Below are positions 9,554 through 53,847 of a DNA stretch of 64,000 bases, piece after piece. This DNA is from a virus. The DNA is taken from positions 62,001 to 126,000 of IMG/VR virus record IMGVR_UViG_3300034073_003542. One strand, given 5' to 3'. Both the position numbers and the translations under genes were made by a program. Each line of letters opens with the position of its first letter. Position 1 is the stretch's first letter. The notes under the pieces were generated by a model that had not been told where the DNA came from, made no database searches, and saw only the letters and a list, made by a program, of their open reading frames with translations.

Positions 9554-9942
9554 TAATTATTCTCCTTGTTTGCCTTGCTCAACCATGATCTATTTAGTGT
9601 TCGTAGATAATTGACATATAACTCAAAAACCTTTGGATTAACCTCAATAAAATTTGTAACCTCGTCTGTTCGTTTCAGTAATGTGTTTGATTGATTTGTT
9701 ACTAGTGGATTTGGATCAAATATATTTCTACGATCATCTACTCTAACAAAAAATCTAGTTTTTCCATTATTTGTTATTGTTTTTGCATAAACGTCTTTGT
9801 CGTTTTTAAGAGCTTTTTCTGTTTTGATGCGAGGGTTTAGTAAATCGTCTAAGAAATCGTTTTTCTTTTTGTGTCCAAAAAATTCATATTCGTTATTGTC
9901 TGATACATTCGGATCTATTTTAAAAATACATTCTTCTGCCAT
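9553..9942 (-). CDS. Unknown small protein
   Basis: 129 residues, no recognised domain. It begins MAEECIFKIDPNVSDNNEYE and contains a short KTRFFVRVDDRRNIFDPNP segment that resembles a small beta structure, ending in a helical VNYLRTLNRSWLSKANKE. It is spaced 1 base from the FmdB-type gene upstream and touches the HTH gene downstream, so it belongs to the same operon. Nothing in the sequence indicates a specific function. Confidence 0.6.
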   Translation of the reverse strand: MAEECIFKIDPNVSDNNEYEFFGHKKKNDFLDDLLNPRIKTEKALKNDKDVYAKTITNNGKTRFFVRVDDRRNIFDPNPLVTNQSNTLLKRTDEVTNFIEVNPKVFELYVNYLRTLNRSWLSKANKENN

Positions 9943-9943
9943 A

Positions 9944-10324
9944 TTAAATCTTCTTTCTTGGGTTCTTTTTTCTTCTAACTTTTTGTGAATTATCAGACCA
10001 TTTAACTGTTTGGTCTGTATTCATCCTTTTCATTCCTTTTGGTAACGCTCCCTTTTGGCGATAGTCATAGTGTTTCTTTTGTAGTCTACTCTTATGGTCG
10101 TCGCTAAATCTATCTCTATTGCGATCAGCTAATTCTCCAAGAGTAAGTTGATCATCGCTTTTTTTTACACTAGTGATCTGTGTAGCAACGTCCAACATAT
10201 AGTTACGGTGCGTTTTTTTACTATTGCAATGAAGACATTTGGGCGATTCTTGATAGTCTTTTATAAAGAAAAAGAGTTCAAATTTTTCGCCGCATTTATC
10301 GCATCCATAACTATACGTTGGCAT
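9944..10324 (-). CDS. FmdB-type zinc-ribbon protein
   Basis: 126 residues. The N terminus MPTYSYGCDKCGEKFELF with C8/C11 and then C30/C33 (PKCLHCNSKK) is the FmdB/CxxC_CxxC_SSSS zinc-ribbon signature, a putative regulatory domain common in bacteria and phages. The remainder is basic and probably disordered (RNRDRFSDDHKSRLQKKHYD). It overlaps the start-proximal end of the HNH gene by 14 bases. Function in phages is unknown; a regulator or structural zinc protein is possible. Confidence 0.7.
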   Translation of the reverse strand: MPTYSYGCDKCGEKFELFFFIKDYQESPKCLHCNSKKTHRNYMLDVATQITSVKKSDDQLTLGELADRNRDRFSDDHKSRLQKKHYDYRQKGALPKGMKRMNTDQTVKWSDNSQKVRRKKNPRKKI

Positions 10325-10907
10325 TTTGCTTATAACTTTCTGGTAAATATATCGCCCACTCTTCAGGAATACTATCCTTTATTTTAGTTAGATATCTGTT
10401 GATTGGCAAGAATTTACTGCTCTTAGCTGGAACATATGGTAAATGTAGTAATGGCATTTGTGCTTGTTGGGGAGTTCTATTTCCCTTTTTATGATTACAT
10501 TTGACACAACTAGTTGCTATATTTGTCCATACTGTAGGAGTTCCCTTTTTATAGTTCCATAAGCTCTTAGGTATTACGTGATCATATGTTAATTCGCTAC
10601 TATCAAATATCTTATGACAATATAAACAAGTATAATCATCTCTTATGAAAACATTTCTTCTATTAAAGGCGATTCCATGACGACTTGTTTTGAAGAACTT
10701 ACGTGTTCTTACAACAGCAGGAATAGGATACTTACGATCATGAGCACCCTGAATAAAATCATCCTTATAAAAGTCTAGAATATCTACGCCATGTTTATCA
10801 TCTTCTGTATATCCTAAACTCCAACTCATTGCACGAGTCCAAGATACTATACAAAGCGGACTATAATCAGCATTCAAAACTAAACATCTACTGTTTTTGG
10901 TTTTCAT
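10311..10907 (-). CDS. HNH endonuclease
   Basis: 198 residues. A zinc-stabilised HNH core is present: CLYCHKIF, then ELTYDHVIPKSL (catalytic DH), then a second CxxC in SCVKCNHKKGNRT with the final Asn/His. The N-terminal segment RCLVLNADYSPLCIVSW is typical of stand-alone phage HNH proteins of this family. It could be a homing endonuclease or a functional nicking enzyme. The upstream gap of 30 bases to phoH contains no clear promoter. Confidence 0.8.
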   Translation of the reverse strand: MKTKNSRCLVLNADYSPLCIVSWTRAMSWSLGYTEDDKHGVDILDFYKDDFIQGAHDRKYPIPAVVRTRKFFKTSRHGIAFNRRNVFIRDDYTCLYCHKIFDSSELTYDHVIPKSLWNYKKGTPTVWTNIATSCVKCNHKKGNRTPQQAQMPLLHLPYVPAKSSKFLPINRYLTKIKDSIPEEWAIYLPESYKQNANV

Positions 10908-10937: not shown

Positions 10938-11684
10938 TTAACTAGACTTTTTGCTATTTTCGTATTCTTTTTCTTCCAACATCTCTAGTCTGTCTAATAT
11001 TTTCTCAATTATGGGATTACGAACAATATCAGTGGTTTCTAGTACAGAAACGCCGATTCCATCTATCCCATACAAAGAGTCAATCATATACTTAAATCCG
11101 CCTCTCATATGATATGGTAGATCAGATTGAGATACGTCGCCAGTAATCACCATTTTACTGTCTCTGCCTATTCGTGTCAAGAGCATTTTTAGTTGATCAT
11201 AGCTTGCGTTTTGGCATTCGTCCGCAATTATAAAACAATTATGAAAATTACGACCCCTCATAAAACCAAATGGAACAATCTCAATCTTATTACTAGCCTT
11301 TAATGAAACATATGTTCCAGCAGCAGAATAATTATTAATCTCATCTAATATTGGTAATAAATACGGATGTAATTTTTCTTCGAAAATTCCTGGTAGAAAA
11401 CCAAGCTTTTCGCCAGCCTCTACAACTGGTCTAGTTATAATAATTTTATTAACTTTATCTTCTAACAAATACTCCAGCGCAGTACCTACTGCACAAGAAG
11501 TTTTTCCGCTCCCTGCTGGGCCATGACACAAAACAATGCTATTTTGATTTATTTTATTGATATAGTCGGCTTGATTAGCAGATCTAGGTTTTACTTTATG
11601 TCTATTAGCAAATCCCTTAAAATTTGTTGGCGGTCCAATATCATTAGTAGCATCTATAACCTTCTTTTTTCTAGTTTTTCTCAA
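10938..11684 (-). CDS. phoH: PhoH-like ATPase
   Basis: 248 residues. Walker A GPAGSGKT (55-62), Walker B CFIIADECQNAS and the characteristic ITRPVVEAGEKLGFLPG segment identify a PhoH family P-loop ATPase, often linked with RNA handling or phosphate stress and very common in phages. The frame opens with TTG at 11684, with AAAGGA about 8 bases upstream; no ATG lies nearby at the N terminus. A late-type promoter box sits 46 bases upstream, overlapping the end of the dUTPase gene. Confidence 0.88.
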   Translation of the reverse strand: MRKTRKKKVIDATNDIGPPTNFKGFANRHKVKPRSANQADYINKINQNSIVLCHGPAGSGKTSCAVGTALEYLLEDKVNKIIITRPVVEAGEKLGFLPGIFEEKLHPYLLPILDEINNYSAAGTYVSLKASNKIEIVPFGFMRGRNFHNCFIIADECQNASYDQLKMLLTRIGRDSKMVITGDVSQSDLPYHMRGGFKYMIDSLYGIDGIGVSVLETTDIVRNPIIEKILDRLEMLEEKEYENSKKSS

Positions 11685-11729
11685 AGTTAGGTTCCTTTTA
11701 GGGAAGTGTGTTTATAGTAAAATCCTACC

Positions 11730-11742
11730 ATTATATACACTA
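11730..11742 (-). promoter_or_regulatory. Phage promoter box TAGTGTATATAAT (phoH)
   Basis: Copy of the recurring box TRGTGTATNNTAA, here overlapping the dUTPase stop codon and 46 bases upstream of the phoH start. The core TGTATATAAT also resembles an extended -10 element. It has no matching -35. Confidence 0.5.
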
Positions 11743-12159
11743 TCCGCTTGATCCAAACCCCTTTTCGCCCCTATTGGTTTCTGTCAATTCGTCGGTTTCC
11801 ACCATAGGGAAATTAAAATGTTGCTCAATAATGACTTGGGCGATTTTGTCTCCATAAGTTATTTCAAATGTTTTTTCTTTGTCTGTATTAATTAGTACAA
11901 CTTTATATTCGCCCGAATATCCACTATCACAAACTCCTGCTAAAACATCAATACCTTGTTTAGCAGCAAGTCCTGATCTTGGGGCGATTCGTGCATAGAA
12001 CCCATCAGGTAATTGTAAACAAATTCCTGTGCCGACAATAGCTCTTTCTCCAGGGGGAATAGAAACCTGTTCGACGGCAAATAAATCAGCCCCTGCGTCT
12101 GTTGGATTATTTCTTTTGGGCGTTATTGCTAATTCATGAATCTTCTTTACTTTAATCAT
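11740..12159 (-). CDS. dut: dUTPase (trimeric type)
   Basis: Hydrolyses dUTP to dUMP and pyrophosphate, protecting DNA from uracil and feeding dTMP synthesis. The five motifs are visible: DAGADLFA, APRSGLAAK, GVCDSGYSGEY, GDKIAQVIIEQ and the C-terminal RGEKGFGSSG. The frame is open up to 12183, but AGGAGG just before two consecutive ATG codons supports a start at 12159 (MIKVKKIHEL), giving 139 residues, which is the usual length. The gene follows the nrdA stop by 11 bases. Confidence 0.93.
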   Translation of the reverse strand: MIKVKKIHELAITPKRNNPTDAGADLFAVEQVSIPPGERAIVGTGICLQLPDGFYARIAPRSGLAAKQGIDVLAGVCDSGYSGEYKVVLINTDKEKTFEITYGDKIAQVIIEQHFNFPMVETDELTETNRGEKGFGSSG

Positions 12160-12170
12160 CATTCCTCCTA

Positions 12171-13829
12171 TTAGGCTTCGCAACTAGAACAGCTCAGAAG
12201 ATTTCTTGCTAATTCCTGAGCAGGATTTGCGCTCCTCTGATAATAAAATGTTTTAACTCCCATCCTCCATCCCTCAATTAGTAGATCGCTAACTTGTTTT
12301 GGTGGAGTATTGGGTGGAACCATAAGATTTAAGGATTGTGCTTGATCTATATATTGTTGACGATTAGCTGCTTGAATAACAATTTCTTTTTGGCTAATCT
12401 CACCAAAGGTCTTAAACACATCTTTTTCTTCTTGAGATAGAAAATCTAAATGTTGAACAGAACCACCCTTAACCAATATGCTCTTCCACACTTCATCATT
12501 ATGTTTATCATATTTTTTCAATAGATCTTTTAGGTGAGGATTTTTAAATGTAAATTTGCCCTTAGCTAAATTCTTAACAAAGTAATTACTGTTAAGCGGC
12601 TCTATACTGGGGCTAACTTGTCCCAATATAAAGGAACTACTTGTTGTTGGAGCAATAGCAAGAGTTGTAACATTTCTTCGCCCATAGCCCTCTAATATTG
12701 GAGCTTCTCCAAATTTTTCGGCTAATTCAATAGTAGCCCTATCCGCCTTTTCTCTTATTGTTTTCCAGATTTGTCCATTAATCATCTTAGCTTGTAGACT
12801 TTCAAATGGAATCATTTTGCTCTGTAGGTATGAATGCCACCCCAATCCGCCCAAACCTAATGCTCTTTGGTTTAGGGCAAAGTTTCTAGCGCTCTTCATA
12901 AATCTTATATTTTCTGTTTTATCTACAAACTCTTGATTAACAGCGTCTAAGAAATATATCATAGTTTCTACTGCATCTGTTTCGGCTATCTCATCCCAAT
13001 GCAATAGATTAAGACTACTTAGTACACACACAAAACTATTGTTCTCATCTGAAAAAAGATTTATTTCCGAGCATAGATTTGACCCACTTATCTTCATGCT
13101 CTTATCTTTATACACTTGAGGAGCATTATTATTTACTGTGTCGGTAAAGAATATATAAGGATAACCAGTTTCAAACCTCTTTTGGATAATTTTGGCCCAA
13201 ATCTTTCTCTTAGACTTATCTCCCTCAACCATACTATTCATCCAAGCATCAGTAATAGTAACCCCAATGCTCATATTCTGAATAGAATGACCTTCTCCTC
13301 TAATCTGCAAAAACTCTTCAATATCCGGATGTTCTACCGGGAGATATGCTGCAAAAGATCCTCTACGTTGCTGACCTTGAGTGATAACATTTGTAGCAGT
13401 ATCGAACATTTCCATGAAATGTACTGGCCCACTACTTTCGCCCCCAACACTAATCTTAGCTCCACGACCTCTTAGATCACCAAAATAACCACTGGTTCCT
13501 CCACCCACTTTGCTCATCATTCCAACTTCTGCTGTTTTGTACAAGATACTAGTGATTGTATCGTCTATATAACTCCCAAAACAAGAAACAGGTAATCCTC
13601 GTTTATTTCCGAAATTCGTAATGACTGGTGTGCTTAATGAATAAAAACCTTTTGATAAATAGTTATAGAATTTATCAGAGAACCCAGATACACCCAATAT
13701 CTTTTCTGCATTATCTGAAATTTGTCTATATCGTACTTCTGGCTCTGTACCTTCTTCTAGGTAACCGCGTTCTAAAAATAGTCTTGAGTGCTTATTTAGC
13801 CAATAAAATGGTTCATTTACTTTTGTCAT
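12171..13829 (-). CDS. nrdA: Ribonucleotide reductase class I alpha subunit
   Basis: Reduces ribonucleoside diphosphates to deoxy forms with NrdB. Active-site residues are C83 (LPVSCFGS), C253 in SNLCSEI with neighbouring Asn and Glu, C268 (FVCVLSSLNL) and the C-terminal shuttle pair C547/C550 (SCSSC). The protein has 552 residues and lacks the N-terminal ATP-cone, so overall dATP feedback inhibition is probably absent, as in many phage enzymes. It lies 24 bases downstream of nrdB. An AT-rich TATAAATA run directly precedes the start codon but is too close to serve as its promoter. Confidence 0.95.
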   Translation of the reverse strand: MTKVNEPFYWLNKHSRLFLERGYLEEGTEPEVRYRQISDNAEKILGVSGFSDKFYNYLSKGFYSLSTPVITNFGNKRGLPVSCFGSYIDDTITSILYKTAEVGMMSKVGGGTSGYFGDLRGRGAKISVGGESSGPVHFMEMFDTATNVITQGQQRRGSFAAYLPVEHPDIEEFLQIRGEGHSIQNMSIGVTITDAWMNSMVEGDKSKRKIWAKIIQKRFETGYPYIFFTDTVNNNAPQVYKDKSMKISGSNLCSEINLFSDENNSFVCVLSSLNLLHWDEIAETDAVETMIYFLDAVNQEFVDKTENIRFMKSARNFALNQRALGLGGLGWHSYLQSKMIPFESLQAKMINGQIWKTIREKADRATIELAEKFGEAPILEGYGRRNVTTLAIAPTTSSSFILGQVSPSIEPLNSNYFVKNLAKGKFTFKNPHLKDLLKKYDKHNDEVWKSILVKGGSVQHLDFLSQEEKDVFKTFGEISQKEIVIQAANRQQYIDQAQSLNLMVPPNTPPKQVSDLLIEGWRMGVKTFYYQRSANPAQELARNLLSCSSCEA

Positions 13830-43005: not shown

Positions 43006-43671
43006 TTAAACTGAAATTTTATTAAAAAGTTCTAGGCCAGAAGTATAGAAAAATCGCACACCAGAGATATTTGGTGTATTTTTGATGAGTTTTACATGTT
43101 TGTCATTATAAACATTGCCAGTACAAATAGATCTAATATTACTCTTCATCGTTAAAAAGTTGCATGCAATTAAATTATCCTCAACATTATCAAGTGTCGC
43201 CCCACTACTAGTAAAAACCGTATCCAGATTAAACTCCTGCAAAATCTTACAAACTTTATCCAGAGTTTCGTGCTTAAATATCCTATATTCTAGAATATAA
43301 CGAATTCCCACATTTTCTGGCCCACATAATTCTGTGAGAGCTTTAATTTCTTCCCTAAATTTGTCATATTTTCGATTTGTGATAACTTTGGTCGGAATCA
43401 TTAAATCGACGTATTTTACTTTGGCAGAATGTTTGATGATTTGACCCACCATAAATACACGACTTTTCCAATCGGCCAGCCCATAAGGAAAATCTAAGAC
43501 ACACGAAACCGGAATTTTAGCAGGGATGCGGTTTTCCATGAGTTTGATGGTATTTAGACTATAAGGCAAAACCGAAATAGATGTAGCACCATATTTTAGG
43601 GCTTTTGTTATTTCTTCTTGTGTTTCGTGCTCATTTAGCTCATAATTATAGCAAGCATAATCTATTATCAT
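43006..43671 (-). CDS. DeoC-fold protein lacking the catalytic lysines
   Basis: 221 residues with the TIM-barrel signature strands of deoxyribose-phosphate aldolase: VSCVLDFPYG (about 55-64), YVDLMIPTKVITN (about 87-99) with a conserved Asp, GIRYILEYR (about 122-130) and VFTSSGATLD (about 152-161). The Schiff-base Lys and the second Lys of DeoC correspond here to Arg124 and Phe153. An aldolase activity of the usual type is therefore unlikely. It starts 4 bases before the end of the ClpP-like gene. Confidence 0.65.
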   Translation of the reverse strand: MIIDYACYNYELNEHETQEEITKALKYGATSISVLPYSLNTIKLMENRIPAKIPVSCVLDFPYGLADWKSRVFMVGQIIKHSAKVKYVDLMIPTKVITNRKYDKFREEIKALTELCGPENVGIRYILEYRIFKHETLDKVCKILQEFNLDTVFTSSGATLDNVEDNLIACNFLTMKSNIRSICTGNVYNDKHVKLIKNTPNISGVRFFYTSGLELFNKISV

Positions 43672-46413: not shown

Positions 46414-46567
46414 TCCAAACCTCTTGAACAGCCACAACAAAGTGATAATCCGTATTCCAGCTTTGAGAAGGTATTAAAGCTACTGCCTCTAATATATGAT
46501 GTGCTTCTAAATACTCCCAACGTAGTTTATCTGTTTGTTCCTGAATTGTTATTCTGAATTTTCTCAT
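46406..46567 (-). CDS. 53-residue protein coupled to the NAMPT-like gene
   Basis: Open frame starting MRKFRITIQEQTDKLRWEYL and ending HFVVAVQEVWNV. Its ATG overlaps the stop of the NAMPT-like gene as ATGA, and its stop overlaps the next gene, so it is tightly embedded in the operon. The amphipathic pattern suggests a small folded or partner protein. No homologue recognised. Confidence 0.6.
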   Translation of the reverse strand: MRKFRITIQEQTDKLRWEYLEAHHILEAVALIPSQSWNTDYHFVVAVQEVWNV

Positions 46568-48078
46568 ACGATATAAAGTCTCCTACGAATATCTGCCAAG
46601 GTATGATCTACCAACAAATTACCGTCTTGGAATACCGGCACTAGTTCGCCACCCTCTTCTTCTTCGTGTGTTACTTGATCCCGAAGAACATACTCGCCGC
46701 TCACTAAATCAACTCTCAAAAGTCCTCTGGCGGATTTCTTCATCCCGTCATCAGTCACAGGGTCTTTGAAAATTTCTCGTGGCTGTCCGTCCACTTCACA
46801 GTAGGTACTTTTTACAGCAATTCCTAAAGAATCTCTGGTGTTGTAATTGTAGGTATAGGAACCAATCCCAAAGACGATGTTGTTACTGGCAAATCCCTTC
46901 TTAGCAAGACGTTCACAAATTGCTTCTGCTCGTTCTCGGCTAATAGAATCTCCATAGATACAACCGATATGAGGATCAAGTTCCTTGAATCCCTTAGAAT
47001 TGACTTTACCACCAAATACTTCCCAAAGAAGTTCGATGACACCTTTATATTCGGACTCACTATGATTTTGTTTGTAGTAATCTGAACAGTTTTCATATGG
47101 TAATATTGTACCATCATTGGTTCTAGGATTAGTATTTAGCCCACAAACAATATCTACAGGATCGCCGCTATCTGGACGAATAACCATCTTTCCTTCTCTG
47201 CTCAAGATTTTGTCCTTGAGTTTTGTGCAGAAGGTCGTGCATACTTGCCATAGGTCGAAAGAATCCGAAACAATACTAACAATACCACTTGGGAATTGAT
47301 CTAGGATTCTATTAAAGGAATCAATTTCTTGTTCTTTTCCGTAGCTTGTCATGACAGAATGTTCGGAAGCCGGGACAGAACTACCAATCAATTCTGTTTC
47401 CATATTGGCGTTGTAGTATTCTTCAAGCATAAATACGCTAGGAATAGTATCAGTACCAGTAAAACTCAGAAGATGACCAGCTTGATTAAACGTACTTTCT
47501 GTGCTAGAACGACCTCTTTGACTAAAATCATGACCTTGCCATTGAACAAAACTACGATCATCACAAGTTTTATCGGCCCAATTTTCAAGAATTTTGCGGT
47601 ATTCTCGGGCGATAGTTGCATTGACACACAAATCCCAAATACACGTACTCATTTGTGTTTCAAGAAAATTTACCAACCAAGCAAAATCGTCATGAGTATT
47701 TGTAATAGTAAAGAAAGGAACCTTTTCTCTTACAAGACTTCCTTCTGGTAAAGCTTTAATCAAAATAGGAAGATGCCCAAGATCATGTAGCTTCTCGATA
47801 TGTTCGGTTGGCATATCGTAGAAACTAAAATGTTTGTGGAAACGCTTGAATTGCTGGACTACTTTTTCTTTTGGTTGTTCAAAAAAGTTTCTGTTCCATT
47901 GACCTAATAGGTATTCTTTAAGATAGTATTGTAATCCGAAGAAAACGGATCTATCTGTTTGCATATGTTTGAAAGAGCGAGGAGTAAAATTAGAATATAG
48001 ACGAGTAATCCCACCTGGATACATTAGGTGGTGAAACTGTTTGTAGGAATCACTATTAAGAATCGGCAAAATTTCCAT
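46564..48078 (-). CDS. Nicotinamide phosphoribosyltransferase-like enzyme (NAMPT/Namat type)
   Basis: 504 residues, the normal NAMPT length. Conserved elements are LNSDSYKQFHHLMYPGG at the N terminus, DFSQRGRSSTESTFNQAGHL (about 184-203), SVPASEHSVM with active-site His240, and IRPDSGDP (300-307), the NAMPT signature around the diphosphate site. The usual reaction joins nicotinamide to PRPP to form NMN; close phage relatives instead use ADP-ribose pyrophosphate to make NAD+ directly (Namat in NARP1). No NMN adenylyltransferase is visible in the window. A consensus sigma-70 promoter lies upstream. Confidence 0.9.
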   Translation of the reverse strand: MEILPILNSDSYKQFHHLMYPGGITRLYSNFTPRSFKHMQTDRSVFFGLQYYLKEYLLGQWNRNFFEQPKEKVVQQFKRFHKHFSFYDMPTEHIEKLHDLGHLPILIKALPEGSLVREKVPFFTITNTHDDFAWLVNFLETQMSTCIWDLCVNATIAREYRKILENWADKTCDDRSFVQWQGHDFSQRGRSSTESTFNQAGHLLSFTGTDTIPSVFMLEEYYNANMETELIGSSVPASEHSVMTSYGKEQEIDSFNRILDQFPSGIVSIVSDSFDLWQVCTTFCTKLKDKILSREGKMVIRPDSGDPVDIVCGLNTNPRTNDGTILPYENCSDYYKQNHSESEYKGVIELLWEVFGGKVNSKGFKELDPHIGCIYGDSISRERAEAICERLAKKGFASNNIVFGIGSYTYNYNTRDSLGIAVKSTYCEVDGQPREIFKDPVTDDGMKKSARGLLRVDLVSGEYVLRDQVTHEEEEGGELVPVFQDGNLLVDHTLADIRRRLYIV

Positions 48079-48121
48079 TATTTTCTCCTGTAAGATTAAC
48101 TCTCTGTCGCCCTATGTTGCT

Positions 48122-48149
48122 ATTATACCAAGTCTGGTGAGTCTGTCAA
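48122..48149 (-). promoter_or_regulatory. Sigma-70 promoter for the NAMPT-like gene
   Basis: Perfect TTGACA (48144-48149) and TATAAT (48122-48127) with a 16-base spacer, 44 bases upstream of the ATG. It would let host polymerase transcribe the gene immediately after infection. Confidence 0.75.
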
Positions 48150-48164
48150 GCCCTGGCTGTGTTT

Positions 48165-48431
48165 CTAGTCCTTTGACAATTCTTCATTAAAGACCCATTC
48201 TGTATACTTGTTGATTTTTTCTCTATCTATTTTAGTATAGTTATCTATTACCCAATTATATTGATCTTTTATTTCTTGTTTAAGGGATTTAATAAAAGAT
48301 TTGGAGCCTCCATATGATACTGCATTCCACACACGAGACAAAGCTAACAAATATTCTTCTGTTTCAGTATTTCGTGATTCGCCAATTTCTTCTAACAAAT
48401 CAACCATTTCTTCTATAGAAACTTTTTTCAT
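48165..48431 (-). CDS. Small helical protein, unknown
   Basis: 88 residues, Glu- and Lys-rich: MKKVSIEEMVDLLEEIGESR, then LLALSRVWNAVSYGGSKSFI and a C terminus ending WVFNEELSKD. No family recognised. It lies 2 bases downstream of the 94-residue gene and upstream of the NAMPT promoter. Confidence 0.55.
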   Translation of the reverse strand: MKKVSIEEMVDLLEEIGESRNTETEEYLLALSRVWNAVSYGGSKSFIKSLKQEIKDQYNWVIDNYTKIDREKINKYTEWVFNEELSKD

Positions 48432-48433
48432 TT

Positions 48434-48718
48434 TTAATATCCTCTTCTTAATTTTTCTAGTCTATCTTTTTCTTGCATTTCTCTTATTAGGTCTATTGGT
48501 GTTTGATTAAATGAATTTTCTGTTTGGACTAAAGCAATTTCAATTATCTCCCAGTTCTCTAGATCTTTTTTAATTCTAGGGTTTATCATTATTTCACGAA
48601 GATGTAGTTTGATGTGTCCTATATGATTCCAAGTTTTTCCTTTGTTAGACCATTGTGGATCATAACCACCCTTACTATATAATCCTGTTTTCTTGTGTCT
48701 AATTTTATAGATAAACAT
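48434..48718 (-). CDS. Small conserved phage protein (YKIRHKKTGLYSKGG type)
   Basis: 94 residues starting MFIYKIRHKKTGLYSKGGYD followed by GKTWNHIGHIKLHLREI. This pattern occurs in small proteins of unrelated large phages; no function known to me. The ATG follows the stop of the two-helix membrane-protein ORF directly. Confidence 0.6.
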   Translation of the reverse strand: MFIYKIRHKKTGLYSKGGYDPQWSNKGKTWNHIGHIKLHLREIMINPRIKKDLENWEIIEIALVQTENSFNQTPIDLIREMQEKDRLEKLRRGY

Positions 48719-48889
48719 TTATTTACTCCAAAATGCTAAATAAGGTAAAGCTAACGGCCATAAAATCGCAAAAACAAAAGGTTTCCACAAATCTTCATTT
48801 TTGCCGCCTAAAATAGCAAGAAAAAGATAAGCAATAAACGAAACAACAACTCCACCGCAATATATGCCTAATAAAAACATACTCATCAT
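48719..48889 (-). CDS. 56-residue two-helix membrane protein between NADAR and downstream genes
   Basis: Open frame starting MMSMFLLGIYCGGVVVSFIA with a second hydrophobic segment FVFAILWPLALPYLAFW. The ATG overlaps the NADAR stop as ATGA and the stop touches the next ATG, so the frame is locked into the operon. It is probably an integral membrane protein. No homologue is recognised. Its position next to NADAR and the PRPP-synthetase-like gene is the main clue. Confidence 0.6.
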   Translation of the reverse strand: MMSMFLLGIYCGGVVVSFIAYLFLAILGGKNEDLWKPFVFAILWPLALPYLAFWSK

Positions 48890-49386
48890 ACTGATTGATC
48901 TTCCAAAAATTTTGGTATAAAATAGTTGTCTCGTATGTCAGTTAGAATTTCGCCCAATAAATTCTGTCCACGCCATTTTGTTGGATCTTGGGCGTCAGGA
49001 TGATTTTCCGCAAGACCGATCCCCCAAATTTTATCGTAAGGGCTTGCTTCTACCAGAAGTGTTTTTGCGGTCATTAAAAGTTGTGCGCGTAAATCTTCAT
49101 TTTGCTCAAATTTAAGGATATTGCCCATACGCACTATACTCTTACAATTCTGTTCCCAAATAACAGCATTAAAATTAACTACTTGTCTACCTAATTGTTT
49201 TTGTTCTCTTGGATCTTCTGACAAAAGAATTAAAGACTCGGTTTTAGAATCACCAAAAAGTCTAGCTTTCTCAGCCATCATAAACTGTTCTGCACAATTA
49301 TATGCACGACCATTTAGATAAAAATTGCTTTTATACCACTGAGAAAAAGGTCCGCTCCAAAAGAAGGTAAATTTGTCGTATTTCAT
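48886..49386 (-). CDS. NADAR-family enzyme (YbiA-like)
   Basis: 166 residues. FTFFWSGPFSQWYKSNFYLN, NCAEQFMMAEKARLFGD, then KIWGIGLAENHPDAQDP and KWRGQNLLGEILTDIR are the hallmark blocks of NADAR/YbiA proteins. Family members are N-glycosidases acting on ADP-ribosyl or phosphoribosyl compounds; some remove ADP-ribose from guanine in DNA. In a phage this fits undoing host ADP-ribosylation defence (DarT1-type) or handling NAD breakdown products. It abuts the PRPP-synthetase-like gene with no gap. Confidence 0.88.
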   Translation of the reverse strand: MKYDKFTFFWSGPFSQWYKSNFYLNGRAYNCAEQFMMAEKARLFGDSKTESLILLSEDPREQKQLGRQVVNFNAVIWEQNCKSIVRMGNILKFEQNEDLRAQLLMTAKTLLVEASPYDKIWGIGLAENHPDAQDPTKWRGQNLLGEILTDIRDNYFIPKFLEDQSV

Positions 49387-50148
49387 TTAAGCTCCAACAG
49401 TGGCTAGAGACACTTCGCCTGTCCGATTAAAAATCCTCTTGATTCCAGCTTCTTCTAGAACCCCAAGTCCCTTAGAATATATTCCGTGACTTGTATATAA
49501 ATAAACCGAAGCCACATCCTTAGAGTATAAGAGCTTTGCGGCCTCAATAAATGTTCGACCTCCATCGCAAATATCATCAATAATTAAAACGCTATGTCCC
49601 GCAAGATCGTATGTTTGTTCAGATATTTTTAGTCCAGTAATTTGACCAGTTAATTGATCTCTTTCTTTATCTAAAACGACTGTGTGAAATCCAGTAGGAA
49701 CGCAATGCTCATAGCGAATTAAACTACCGTGATCTGGATAACAGATAAAGTCGGGTCGAACTTCCCTAAGAACATCGTATATTTCTGATGTTGGCTCAAT
49801 ATCTACAAAATTTGATGGAAGTAAATGTTTAGAATGAGCATCATAAGTATATACGCGATTATAAAAAGGAGCAATAATCTTCAAGAAGGTATTGAGTCCA
49901 AAAGTCGTATCATTTGCAATAGGTTTATCTTGACGACCATAAGGAAGAAACGGAATATATAGATTAGCGTTATGTTGAAGTAAATCTCCCAACTGACAAA
50001 CAGTAACTAATTCATGGTCGCCCTCATAAATCCATTCAACATCACAACGCTTACATTCTAACAATTCATCATCAAGCTTCCACACTTGTTGAGTCTTATC
50101 TGGAAAAATGGTTGGAATAATTTTTTCGCCGTTCAATGTTACTGACAT
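49387..50148 (-). CDS. PRPP synthetase-like enzyme (Prs/Adps type)
   Basis: 253 residues, shorter than bacterial Prs (about 315). NLYIPFLPYGRQDKPI is the ATP-binding region, TYDAHSKHLL matches the D-x-H catalytic segment and VLIIDDICDGGRTF (187-200) is the PRPP-binding loop. Two reactions are possible: ribose-5-phosphate to PRPP, or ADP-ribose to ADP-ribose pyrophosphate as in Adps of the NARP1 pathway. It starts 10 bases inside the end of the glycosyltransferase gene. The partner NAMPT-like gene lies 1.3 kb downstream. Confidence 0.85.
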   Translation of the reverse strand: MSVTLNGEKIIPTIFPDKTQQVWKLDDELLECKRCDVEWIYEGDHELVTVCQLGDLLQHNANLYIPFLPYGRQDKPIANDTTFGLNTFLKIIAPFYNRVYTYDAHSKHLLPSNFVDIEPTSEIYDVLREVRPDFICYPDHGSLIRYEHCVPTGFHTVVLDKERDQLTGQITGLKISEQTYDLAGHSVLIIDDICDGGRTFIEAAKLLYSKDVASVYLYTSHGIYSKGLGVLEEAGIKRIFNRTGEVSLATVGA

Positions 50149-51221
50149 TTTTCAATAGTCTCCTTAATAATCTTAGCAGTATTTTCCCAAGTAAACTTCT
50201 TACACGTACCTAAACCATGAGCATTATATACGATACGATTCTCATAACAATGTCTCATATATTGTTTTGTTTGCTGGAATTGTTTTTCGCCCAGTTTTGC
50301 CCATTTTCCTGTTCCAAAAAACCATTTTCCGTCATTAGCTACTTCCAATTCATCAATATCAACAAGGAATGAATTGTCTTTAGTACAATATTGAGTATGA
50401 GCGGAATAGTTAGTTGCTATGATCGGTTTATTCAATGCCATACTTTCCAGAATTGAATTATTCCATCCTTCTGCTCTTGATAAAAATACTCCACAATGCC
50501 CTAACGATATATATTGTGCTAAATGATGTTGTGTTGGTAGTCTCTCAAATATTTTGATCTTCTTTTGTAGAGGAGATAGTTTGACTAGATTTTCCCATTG
50601 AGCTGTTTCTTCTGCGTTTAAGAACGGATTTGCGGGAAGTAACCATAATTCTACATTATCTGTTTGACTAAATGTGTTATTGAAGCATTGTATGAGAAAA
50701 TCGTGAGCTTTTCTTGTTTCCCATTTACCAATATGAAAAAACACATATGGTTGTTGTGGGTCTTCGATCTTTATTCTACGCTCGTCTTTAAAAATGTCAA
50801 GGTCAACTGCTAGAGGGGCTACATAAACAGGCTTGACTACTCCATTATCAATTAGGACTTGTTTTGCCCATTCGCTCGACACAAATATTCCGTCGCATGA
50901 ATTTAGGTGTACGCGCTCTTGATCTGTTAATTGATCTACTTCAAAAAAAACATGACTGAAATATGGACCACTTCCTATTCTTTGGGCGAGGTCAAATTGA
51001 TGCCAGATTTTTAAGCAGGGAGCTTTGTAGTCAAAGTTTTGGGCGTTTCCATAAGTCTCTTGAACTATAGCTTTTTCTATGTCGTTATTGAGTTGAATAT
51101 TTTGGGTACTCATAGGAAACAAACTAATATCAACTCCAAGATTATGTAATCCTTTTAGGATGTTGACGCTTGTAATTCCATAGCCAGTTGTGCCTAGTGG
51201 ACACTGTAGATTAAGTTTCAT
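50139..51221 (-). CDS. Glycosyltransferase, GT-B fold (family 4-like)
   Basis: 360 residues. The N terminus begins GTTGYGITSVNILKGL (glycine loop), and the C-terminal half has FFHIGKWETRKAHDFLIQCF and VFLSRAEGWNNSILESMA with the E251-x7-E259 motif of retaining GT4 enzymes, then ATNYSAHTQYC. It transfers a sugar from an activated donor; the acceptor is unknown (phage DNA base, virion or host glycan). It starts 1 base from the HNH-type gene upstream. Confidence 0.82.
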   Translation of the reverse strand: MKLNLQCPLGTTGYGITSVNILKGLHNLGVDISLFPMSTQNIQLNNDIEKAIVQETYGNAQNFDYKAPCLKIWHQFDLAQRIGSGPYFSHVFFEVDQLTDQERVHLNSCDGIFVSSEWAKQVLIDNGVVKPVYVAPLAVDLDIFKDERRIKIEDPQQPYVFFHIGKWETRKAHDFLIQCFNNTFSQTDNVELWLLPANPFLNAEETAQWENLVKLSPLQKKIKIFERLPTQHHLAQYISLGHCGVFLSRAEGWNNSILESMALNKPIIATNYSAHTQYCTKDNSFLVDIDELEVANDGKWFFGTGKWAKLGEKQFQQTKQYMRHCYENRIVYNAHGLGTCKKFTWENTAKIIKETIEKCQ

Positions 51222-51970
51222 TATATTTTATCTTTCCATTCTTTTGATATTTCATGACATGTTCTTATAAAGTATTCTAAATCAAAATCACTTTTCATTC
51301 GTTGTAGGTCTTTGTGTACCCAGCCTATATTATCAATAGTATATCCTTTACTTGAGTCTATTCTATCTAAGGACGCTGTTTTGTTGTGTACTGATATTTC
51401 TCTACCAGTTAAATAACATTTATGGTTTTGTTTTTCTAGCAATAAATCCATATCTTCTATTGTTAGAGAAAATTTTCTATTTTTACTTTTAGCTCCCAAC
51501 TTAACTTGGGCAAAATAAGTTCCTGTTATATTTTTTGTACCTTTATAAGAAACATGATCAATTCCGCGTTTTCTTCTACTACAATTTTTACATACTTTAG
51601 TTTTTCCTAATTCACTAGCTTTTGTCACATATTCATATCCGCATACACAACGAATTAATATTTTTCTTCTATTATTAATAAGCTCTTTAGTATATCCAAT
51701 AACAGTAAAATTATTAATTATATCTCCAGACTTATATTTATGTAAATTATTTTTAGCAAAGCAACTTTTACAAGAATTAATTCTTTTTATATTTCCTGTA
51801 GGAACTATTCTAATTTTTCCACATTCGCATCTAACTTTAACGTGCCAAGCTTTGTTTCTTCTAAAAGGTTTTTTTGATATTACTGTATAAAGACCATATT
51901 TATCTCCATATTTTGTAATAATTCTTTTTGTTTTGTGGTTTTTACTATCTTTTTGTTTCAATTTTTTCAT
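51221..51970 (-). CDS. HNH homing endonuclease with zinc-finger DNA-binding repeats
   Basis: 249 residues. Two CxC or CxxC zinc modules (VRCECGKI with SCKSC; IRCVCGYEY with VCKNC) precede a C-terminal HNH-like core CYLTGREISVHN, ASLDRIDSSKGYTIDNIGW (catalytic D-x-I-D and Asn) typical of free-standing phage homing endonucleases. The gene is inserted between GMP reductase and glycosyltransferase genes with overlapping ends, and its Lys/Asn-rich, very AT-rich coding differs from both neighbours. Confidence 0.8.
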   Translation of the reverse strand: MKKLKQKDSKNHKTKRIITKYGDKYGLYTVISKKPFRRNKAWHVKVRCECGKIRIVPTGNIKRINSCKSCFAKNNLHKYKSGDIINNFTVIGYTKELINNRRKILIRCVCGYEYVTKASELGKTKVCKNCSRRKRGIDHVSYKGTKNITGTYFAQVKLGAKSKNRKFSLTIEDMDLLLEKQNHKCYLTGREISVHNKTASLDRIDSSKGYTIDNIGWVHKDLQRMKSDFDLEYFIRTCHEISKEWKDKI

Positions 51971-53070
51971 ATCAGATATTGTGGATTCTTATTGTCATGA
52001 ATTTTTGTTACTCTTATAAAACTCGCGCATTTATTCATATCTTTAATACATACTGCTCCAATATAAGAGCAACATGATCTTATTCCTCCTAGTAGTTCAT
52101 TAATAATATTTTGTATTGGTCCTTTATATGGAACCGTAATTTTAGTTCCTTCACTAGCTCTATAGTCTTTTTTTGTGTCTTCATATATCGCTTGTGCATA
52201 ATGTGTTGACATCCCATAATATGTAAAGTTAATTTTTTGTGGGATTTTCTTTGGGTCGATACTACAATAATCATAAGTCCATTCACCAACACATTCATCT
52301 ACACCAGAAAAATAGCCGCCAAGACAAATAAAATCAGCCCCAGCACATAACGCTTTCGCTATATCTCCTGAATTTTTATGTCCACCATCAGAACAAACTA
52401 GTCCTATTTTTTTAGGTTCCTTTTGTTGTCCATGAGCTATATATCCATTATTTATAACACAACTTAATTGAGGAAATCCACAACCTGTAACAAATCTTGA
52501 AAGACAAGCCGATCCACCACCAATTCCAACCTTAACAATATCAACCCCGCCATGAATAATAAGTTCTTGTGTAGAAGCCGTGTTAGTTACATTTCCAGCC
52601 ATAATTATTGAATCTTCAAAATGTGATCTAACTTCTTTGCAATACTTAACAAAACTATCCATATGTCCATTAGGAACATCAATACAGATATTGGGCGACT
52701 CTATATCTAGGGCCAGAAGCTGATTGTCTAGCTCTATTAGTTTGCTTAGTTCGCTCTTTTTATATCCTATACTAATCCAAACATAAGGTATATTTTGTGG
52801 TTTCTGTTTAAAGTACTGTACTAATTCTTCTACAGAATGATACTTATGCAAAACAGCAATCATGTTATTGTCAGCCATCTTATCTGCAATAGGGAATGAG
52901 CAAAATCCCATATTGGCACACATAACTGGTGTACCTTTCCATGTTCTAGGAGAATGATAAAACTTAAATTCGCGCAAAATCTCAATATCTGCTCTACTAT
53001 CAACAGTAGATCTTTGCGGTTCAATAAGAACATCGTCAAAATCCAATTGGATTTCATTGTTGATTTTCAT
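51967..53070 (-). CDS. guaC: GMP reductase (IMPDH/GMPR family)
   Basis: Reduces GMP to IMP with NADPH. 367 residues with no CBS domains, as in GMPR. Key blocks: PVMCANMGFCSF, MAGNVTNT, VKVGIGGGSACLSRFVTGCG with the catalytic Cys189, GLVCSDGGHKNSGDIAKAL and the C-terminal YKGPIQNIINELLGGIRSCC. GMPR and IMPDH share these, but the TGCGFPQLS segment and lack of CBS domains favour GMPR. It would rebalance purine pools or supply precursors for modified bases. Confidence 0.85.
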   Translation of the reverse strand: MKINNEIQLDFDDVLIEPQRSTVDSRADIEILREFKFYHSPRTWKGTPVMCANMGFCSFPIADKMADNNMIAVLHKYHSVEELVQYFKQKPQNIPYVWISIGYKKSELSKLIELDNQLLALDIESPNICIDVPNGHMDSFVKYCKEVRSHFEDSIIMAGNVTNTASTQELIIHGGVDIVKVGIGGGSACLSRFVTGCGFPQLSCVINNGYIAHGQQKEPKKIGLVCSDGGHKNSGDIAKALCAGADFICLGGYFSGVDECVGEWTYDYCSIDPKKIPQKINFTYYGMSTHYAQAIYEDTKKDYRASEGTKITVPYKGPIQNIINELLGGIRSCCSYIGAVCIKDMNKCASFIRVTKIHDNKNPQYLI

Positions 53071-53819: not shown

Positions 53820-53847
53820 ATTGTACCATGAGCTTCCTGTGTGTCAA
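53820..53847 (-). promoter_or_regulatory. Sigma-70 promoter for the phage sigma-factor gene
   Basis: Perfect TTGACA (53842-53847) and TACAAT (53820-53825) with a 16-base spacer, 17 bases upstream of the ATG. Confidence 0.7.

Follow-up and report, generated by a model that had tools for sequence, protein, structure and literature searches.

How would a phage use genes for an NAMPT-like enzyme, a NADAR enzyme, and a Prs-like enzyme that lie together on one strand: for classical salvage of nicotinamide adenine dinucleotide (NAD+), for the ADP-ribose-using pathway NARP1, or for something else? We addressed this question in IMG/VR record IMGVR_UViG_3300034073_003542, a virus record of 209,847 bases that may be incomplete and whose source, judged from its structural genes, is a tailed phage. 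The window, by which we mean the whole 64,000-nucleotide stretch analyzed, covers positions 62001-126000 of this record, and the coordinates below are those of the window unless the record is named. A sequence-only reading of the same DNA had named the three genes and their positions beforehand, and the open reading frames (ORFs) found there are all full-length and all on the minus strand. They are the namat-like gene (46564..48078, 504 amino acids, aa), predicted to encode a nicotinamide ADP-ribose transferase that makes NAD+ from ADP-ribose pyrophosphate and nicotinamide; the YbiA-type NADAR gene (48886..49386, 166 aa), predicted to encode an ADP-ribosyl hydrolase; and the adps-like gene (49387..50148, 253 aa), predicted to encode a short variant of the ADP-ribose pyrophosphokinase Adps, which makes ADP-ribose pyrophosphate from ADP-ribose and ATP. 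As that reading had also held, NADAR abuts the Prs-like gene: the adps stop codon touches the NADAR start codon (TAA followed at once by ATG, a 0-bp gap). The adps-like and namat-like genes are 1.3 kb apart, with NADAR and three small ORFs between them.

NARP1 is itself known and widespread, and it has been shown to defeat NAD+ depletion (PMC12774641). We consider it moderately probable that the window carries a NARP1 counterdefense module together with an accessory enzyme, NADAR, predicted to release ADP-ribose. The identical arrangement is present in record IMGVR_UViG_3300035670_000020, which comes from the same phage or from one nearly identical to it; no near-identical record was found in the phage collection.

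A Namat-like enzyme with an adenine clamp

The namat-like protein matches PF04095 (1.3e-43), PF18127 (1.2e-10), and PHROG 448 (5.5e-187), and it is 49% identical to the structurally solved Namat of phage SPbetaL1 (9w5w/9w5x) versus 33% identical to Xcc Nampt. The IRPDSGDP motif and the catalytic His at residue 240, both noted in the sequence-only reading, are present. The catalytic set D10, Y12, F185, R188, D210, H240, R301, and D303 is intact and, in the alignment, identical to D13, Y15, F189, R192, D215, His245, R306, and D308 of SPbetaL1 Namat; residues of the nicotinamide mononucleotide (NMN) site are also kept. A search with the window Namat matched 1,941 phage records, a number that includes Nampts.

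The residues that distinguish Namat from Nampt are more informative, because the Namat structure defines an adenine "selectivity clamp" consisting of a helix, GSX-X-X-TRD, with two aromatics (positions 3 and 7) and a stacking residue in a loop, which in Namats is Arg, or Lys/Tyr followed by a stacking residue (PMC12774641). The corresponding helix in the window, GSYTYNYNTRD, fits this published consensus (PMC12774641), with Y408, Y412, T414, and D416 all present. Y408/Y412 align with F392/Y396 of SPbetaL1 Namat, at positions occupied by A/K in Xcc Nampt and by G/K in human Nampt, and in a motif comparison the helix of clampless Nampts (GxGGxLLQ...RD) is not what the namat-like protein carries. 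The putative clamp loop, K37-H38, aligns with R40-V41 of SPbetaL1.

In a phylogenetic tree, the namat-like protein falls within the Namat clade (SH-aLRT 100), with SPbetaL1 and ICP1. We rejected tree position alone as a guide to function because NadV of the Haemophilus ducreyi plasmid pNAD1 (locus L114), a classic NAMPT, sits inside the same clade without either clamp aromatic (GAQTYQRNTRD, with Q and R in their places). By every sequence test that we made, the NAMPT-like enzyme of the window qualifies as a Namat.

A short and divergent predicted Adps

The adps-like protein matches PF00156 (5.2e-9) and PHROG 619 (1.8e-48), and every NCBIfam model for true Prs scores below its cutoff against it. 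In the tree it groups with phage Adps, from which five true Prs split off at SH-aLRT 99, and it lies inside a set of nine short Adps with support of 96. Its loop, IIDDICDGGRTF (DDICDGGRT), is accompanied by the motif HGIYSK; DDICDGGRT is the commonest Adps loop form in our collection, and the loop of Escherichia coli Prs is DDMIDTGGT. The Adps/Namat pair of phage DyoEdafos carries DDICDGGGT and GSFTYQHNTRD, and this pair has been biochemically tested and found active (PMC13232231). The closest relatives of the adps-like protein in viral contigs are encoded next to Namat-family genes, and the same pairing occurs in nearly all relatives. An AlphaFold model of the protein (pLDDT 86.7) has the fold of a synthetase of phosphoribosyl pyrophosphate (PRPP), which is expected for Adps and Prs alike; therefore, a fold search cannot tell the two apart. 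By its placement in the tree, the Prs-like enzyme is a predicted Adps.

The two enzymes differ in which phages hold their closest relatives. The Namats most similar to that of the window (64 to 77% identical; L089, L096, L196, L197, and L200) are paired with Adps that are 25 to 29% identical to the window Adps and have different loops, DDIGTGFGT and DDLLDGGAS. Conversely, the nearest matches to the window Adps (about 42% identity) come from L002 and L005, and the Namats of these two loci are only 48 to 50% identical to that of the window. Given this mismatch in relatedness, adps and namat were probably brought together in this phage by exchange, that is, by a swap of partners. The DDIGTGFGT loop, found in L089, L096, L196, and L197, marks a separate Adps variant. 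A single 377-aa ORF in L019 and L098 (9186-10319) matches both Adps and Namat; it may be a fusion of the two that arose naturally, or it may reflect an error in the sequence.

NARP1 versus classical salvage

In classical salvage, NMN made by Nampt is completed to NAD+ by an NMN adenylyltransferase (NMNAT). The sequence-only reading had seen no gene for this enzyme in the window, and the statement extends to the whole, possibly incomplete, record of 209,847 bases, in which PF01467 has 0 matches; control searches were positive in 14 of 14 genomes. Among the unique Namat/Nampt proteins that we collected, clamp-bearing ones never occur beside a Prs-type loop, and clampless ones mostly occur with a DDMxDTGGT-type Prs and an NMNAT-type gene. 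The exceptions are L007 (Adps 9920-10744, Nampt-like 11462-12889) and L012, where clampless Nampt-like enzymes (GVGGLLLQ), placed in the tree immediately outside the Namats, are partnered by DDICDGG-loop Adps relatives from the window's own subclade. These enzymes are possibly intermediates or a PRPP-using variant, and because of them an Adps-type loop alone is not decisive. The window is on the NARP1 side in both clamp and loop. The proposal that its Prs-like and NAMPT-like enzymes are Adps and Namat of NARP1, rather than enzymes of classical salvage, is thus well supported at the sequence level: the trees, the clamp residues (PMC12774641), the Adps-type loop, and the lack of an NMNAT match all agree with it. 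Classical salvage by Nampt plus NMNAT, with or without Prs, corresponds to the NARP2 type, reportedly defined by Osterman and colleagues in 2024 in the founding NARP1 paper.

NADAR and its linkage to NAD+ genes

The NADAR protein matches PF08719 (8.7e-50). Its residues E33, K40, R67, W77, E113, D118, and W121 are fully conserved across nine relatives and align with E43, K50, R79, W89, E125, D130, and W133 in the structure of the P. nicotianae NADAR, which are ligand-binding and catalytic. The catalytic Glu/Lys pair is thus present (E33, K40), and the last-strand residue, Glu113, is of the YbiA type, not the Asp of the DarT1-linked NADAR (BC4488) or the His of the T4 gp30.3 type. NADARs tested so far act on guanine in DNA and RNA, from which they remove ADP-ribose (PMC11125620, PMC11543638, PMC11833690). 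From this family membership, the window NADAR probably frees ADP-ribose, the starting material of NARP1.

We scanned phage sequences for relatives of this NADAR and kept the best 80 of 387 loci, in 32 of which a Namat/Nampt gene lies no more than 10 kb from NADAR. After removal of near-copies and addition of a few linked loci that had been found via NARP1, 65 distinct window-like phage NADARs remained, and 24 of them are within 10 kb of a Namat/Nampt gene (14 NARP1, 10 Nampt); in reading this count and the next, it should be kept in mind that the PF04095 model also catches nicotinate enzymes and that the query alignment contained linked NADARs. On contigs 80 kb or longer with both genes, the two are no more than 10 kb apart in 13 of 28 cases, compared to 2.5 expected under uniform placement (0 of 200,000 simulations as high). 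The linkage of NADAR to NAD+ rebuilding is not due to chance. Other genes found repeatedly in the vicinity of NADAR are Nuc_deoxyri_tr2, DUF1937, SIR2, and SLOG.

Viewed from the NARP1 side, Macro genes are commoner neighbors than NADAR, being present near 14 of 98 distinct NARP1 loci and within 500 bp in six. Linked NADARs often have a Macro gene as well, and the cassette commonly follows adps directly, in the place that RyDEP takes in DyoEdafos. The recurring gene orders are Adps-Macro-NADAR-Namat, with overlaps or 0-bp gaps (L143, L186); Adps-Macro (L061); Adps-NADAR, with a 1-nucleotide overlap in L180 and 0 bp in the window; Adps-Namat-NADAR (L006, L250); and, in phage DyoEdafos, Adps-RyDEP-Namat. 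Macro-domain genes adjoin adps in many NARP1 loci (L053, L061, L129, L143, L169, L180, L186, L192, and others). We found no Macro gene in the phage studied here. A scan for the RyR domain (PF02026) gave 0 matches in the record and likewise 0 in the control genomes.

Proposed mechanism and alternative explanations

In the pathway that we propose, NADAR would hydrolyze an ADP-ribose conjugate to free ADP-ribose, a step suggested by its family; the substrate would most likely be ADP-ribosylated guanine in phage DNA or RNA, or possibly a small ADP-ribose-based signal. NAD-cleaving defenses also yield free ADP-ribose directly, along with nicotinamide. Adps would then pyrophosphorylate ADP-ribose using ATP, and from the resulting ADP-ribose pyrophosphate and nicotinamide, Namat would form NAD+ in a single step that requires no NMNAT; both of these steps have strong sequence support. 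The main argument that the NADAR product may feed Adps is positional, namely, the parallel with RyDEP, which also follows adps; this is an analogy and not a test. The fullest form of this proposal makes NADAR a working third enzyme of the pathway: ADP-ribose released by it from ADP-ribosylated nucleic acid, or from an immune signal built on ADP-ribose, would pass to Adps and Namat, and phages of this type would convert the mark left by a defense back into NAD+. In that case, Macro, NADAR, and RyDEP would be ADP-ribose-releasing cassettes of NARP1 that can stand in for one another. We put this form forward tentatively, as a possibility.

Several observations weigh against the proposed module. 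Namat retains some Nampt activity in vitro and can use PRPP (PMC12774641), the adps-like protein is only 27 to 34% identical to characterized or reference Adps, and L007 and L012 pair an Adps-type loop with a clampless Nampt-like enzyme. Because one nine-member NADAR clade supplies most NARP1 links (9 of 14 rows), independent linkage events may be few. NADAR is within 10 kb in only 3 of 98 distinct NARP1 loci, all three within 205 bp; therefore, NARP1 does not need NADAR, and we rejected the idea that NADAR is a general NARP1 component. Finally, 10 of the 24 linked NADARs sit with routes made up of Nampt, Prs, and NMNAT, of which ADP-ribose is not a direct substrate, so protection against ADP-ribosylation may be the main role of NADAR.

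In an alternative reading, NARP1 is real and NADAR is an independent neighbor that would strip guanine in phage DNA or RNA of ADP-ribose and so counter a DarT1-like defense, any recycling of ADP-ribose being incidental. The NADARs of T4 and others do hydrolyze guanine-ADP-ribose in vitro (PMC11125620, PMC11833690), phage ADP-ribose-processing genes cluster generally (PMC9503650), the linkage of NADAR extends to Nampt routes, which make no direct use of ADP-ribose, and 95 of the 98 NARP1 loci have none within 10 kb. However, the abutment of NADAR on adps, whether direct (the window, L180) or via Macro (L143, L186), is at the position of RyDEP, a proven feeder, and we regard full independence as rather unlikely. 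Classical salvage, in which the Prs-like enzyme would make PRPP, the NAMPT-like enzyme NMN, and a host NMNAT the final NAD+, would account for the modeled Prs fold of the adps-like protein, the use of PRPP by Namat in vitro (PMC12774641), and the pairing of window-Adps relatives with clampless Nampt-like enzymes in L007 and L012, with the host supplying the missing enzyme. We rejected it as a candidate on the clamp, the loop (Adps-type, not DDMxDTGGT), and the grouping of both proteins apart from Prs and Nampt, and because phages with the classical set have an NMNAT-type gene beside Nampt and none was found in this record; we consider it highly improbable. Equally improbable is a role in general metabolism, with NADAR as a YbiA-like N-glycosidase clearing reactive riboflavin intermediates in a cluster for nucleotide supply rather than counterdefense. 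The protein does match the TIGR02464 riboflavin-intermediate N-glycosidase model (1.8e-45), and GMP reductase, DeoC-like aldolase, and ribonucleotide reductase genes are present in the window; against this, the genes to which NADAR is linked are those for NAD+ rebuilding and for Macro, SIR2, and SLOG proteins, none of its recurrent neighbors was noted as a riboflavin gene, and NARP1 has elsewhere been shown to counter NAD+ depletion (PMC12774641).

Comparison with known systems

The module resembles NARP1 of phages SPbetaL1, Bas63, and DyoEdafos in its two enzyme families, its clamp and catalytic residues, the proximity of its genes, and the absence of an NMNAT. Unlike in those phages, NADAR and three small ORFs lie between adps and namat here, a separate promoter match precedes namat, and Adps is short and divergent (253 aa). 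The closest parallel for NADAR is the glycosidase RyDEP, whose cleavage of 2'cADPR supplies ADP-ribose for NAD+ synthesis by NARP1 (PMC13232231). In DyoEdafos as in the window, a gene for an ADP-ribose-releasing enzyme (release by NADAR being predicted) comes right after adps and before namat, but NADAR has an unrelated fold and a different likely substrate, and its feeding link is drawn by analogy. NADAR near the classical salvage genes NadM and NadV in phages was reported in 2022 (Iyer et al. 2022, PMC9503650). Those neighborhoods, in which NADAR occurs with NadM, NadV, Macro, SLOG, and SIR2 (PMC9503650), likewise place NADAR beside NAD+-making genes; however, their enzymes are those of classical salvage and the report predates NARP1, whereas the partner in the window is a predicted ADP-ribose-using route. 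The NADARs of the DarT1-NADAR toxin-antitoxin system and phage T4 (gp30.3) share the superfamily and the conserved catalytic Glu and Lys with the window enzyme, which differs from them in its last-strand Glu (Asp and His, respectively); no toxin gene was recognized in the operon.

None of the papers listed by our literature search, which did not extend to the founding NARP1 paper, combines NADAR with NARP1; to the extent that this could be established, a NADAR/Macro cassette within NARP1 operons is therefore a variant not described before. Where NARP1 obtains ADP-ribose beyond the products of NADases is a question that RyDEP is only beginning to answer, and a NADAR/Macro cassette recurring beside adps suggests conjugates as a further source that phages may draw on. 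Poorly understood phage NADARs thereby gain a concrete and cheap biochemical test. Since NADAR/NARP1 pairings recur in other phages, this is a clear and testable idea, not an entirely new kind of system.

Neighboring genes and promoters

The sequence-only reading had proposed a unit larger than NARP1 that included a tiny membrane protein. The far-above-chance linkage of NADAR to NAD+ genes and the RyDEP parallel favor a larger unit, of which the membrane protein is at most a putative member. This small predicted membrane protein (48719..48889, minus strand, 56 aa) lies 3' of NADAR and has no significant family match; GhoT/OrtT came up at E=0.19 only, and we therefore set aside a GhoT/OrtT-type toxin as unsupported. 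The ORF list gives two more minus-strand ORFs between NADAR and namat (48434..48718, 94 aa; 48165..48431, 88 aa). No relative of any of the three turned up in the other loci retrieved.

The gene run reading into adps consists of genes for a sigma factor, GMP reductase, HNH, and a glycosyltransferase, followed by adps and NADAR. The group 1 glycosyltransferase gene (50139..51221, minus strand; PF13692, 6.6e-13) overlaps the start of adps by 10 nucleotides and is an operon neighbor outside the pathway. The GMP reductase-like gene (51967-53070) matches PRK05096 at 1.4e-101, with 340 bits versus a cutoff of 397. A DeoC-like (deoxyribose-phosphate aldolase) protein at 43006-43671 (1.9e-15, below cutoff) adjoins a ClpP-type head protease.

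An early-type promoter match, TTGACA-N16-TATAAT (12/12, with TG before the -10), precedes namat at 48122..48149 on the minus strand, and another, TTGACA-N16-TACAAT (53820..53847, minus strand), is upstream of the sigma factor gene that heads the run to adps and NADAR. These consensus matches suggest that the module is expressed early. Near-perfect TTGACA-N15-18-TATAAT/TACAAT sites number about 40 in the record, compared to 1.05 expected in shuffles; most (>30, mostly on the minus strand) are at 125-210 kb of the record, which is likely the early region, and just four are in the mostly structural window. About 24 tRNA genes are clustered at about 203-206 kb of the record (L278, L279), with one tRNA-Cys gene near 175.8 kb and none in the window. 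A tmRNA gene at about 142,845-143,194 of the record (L275:17845-18194, minus strand; Rfam RF00023, 96.9 bits), not called by ARAGORN, lies just behind an early-type promoter.

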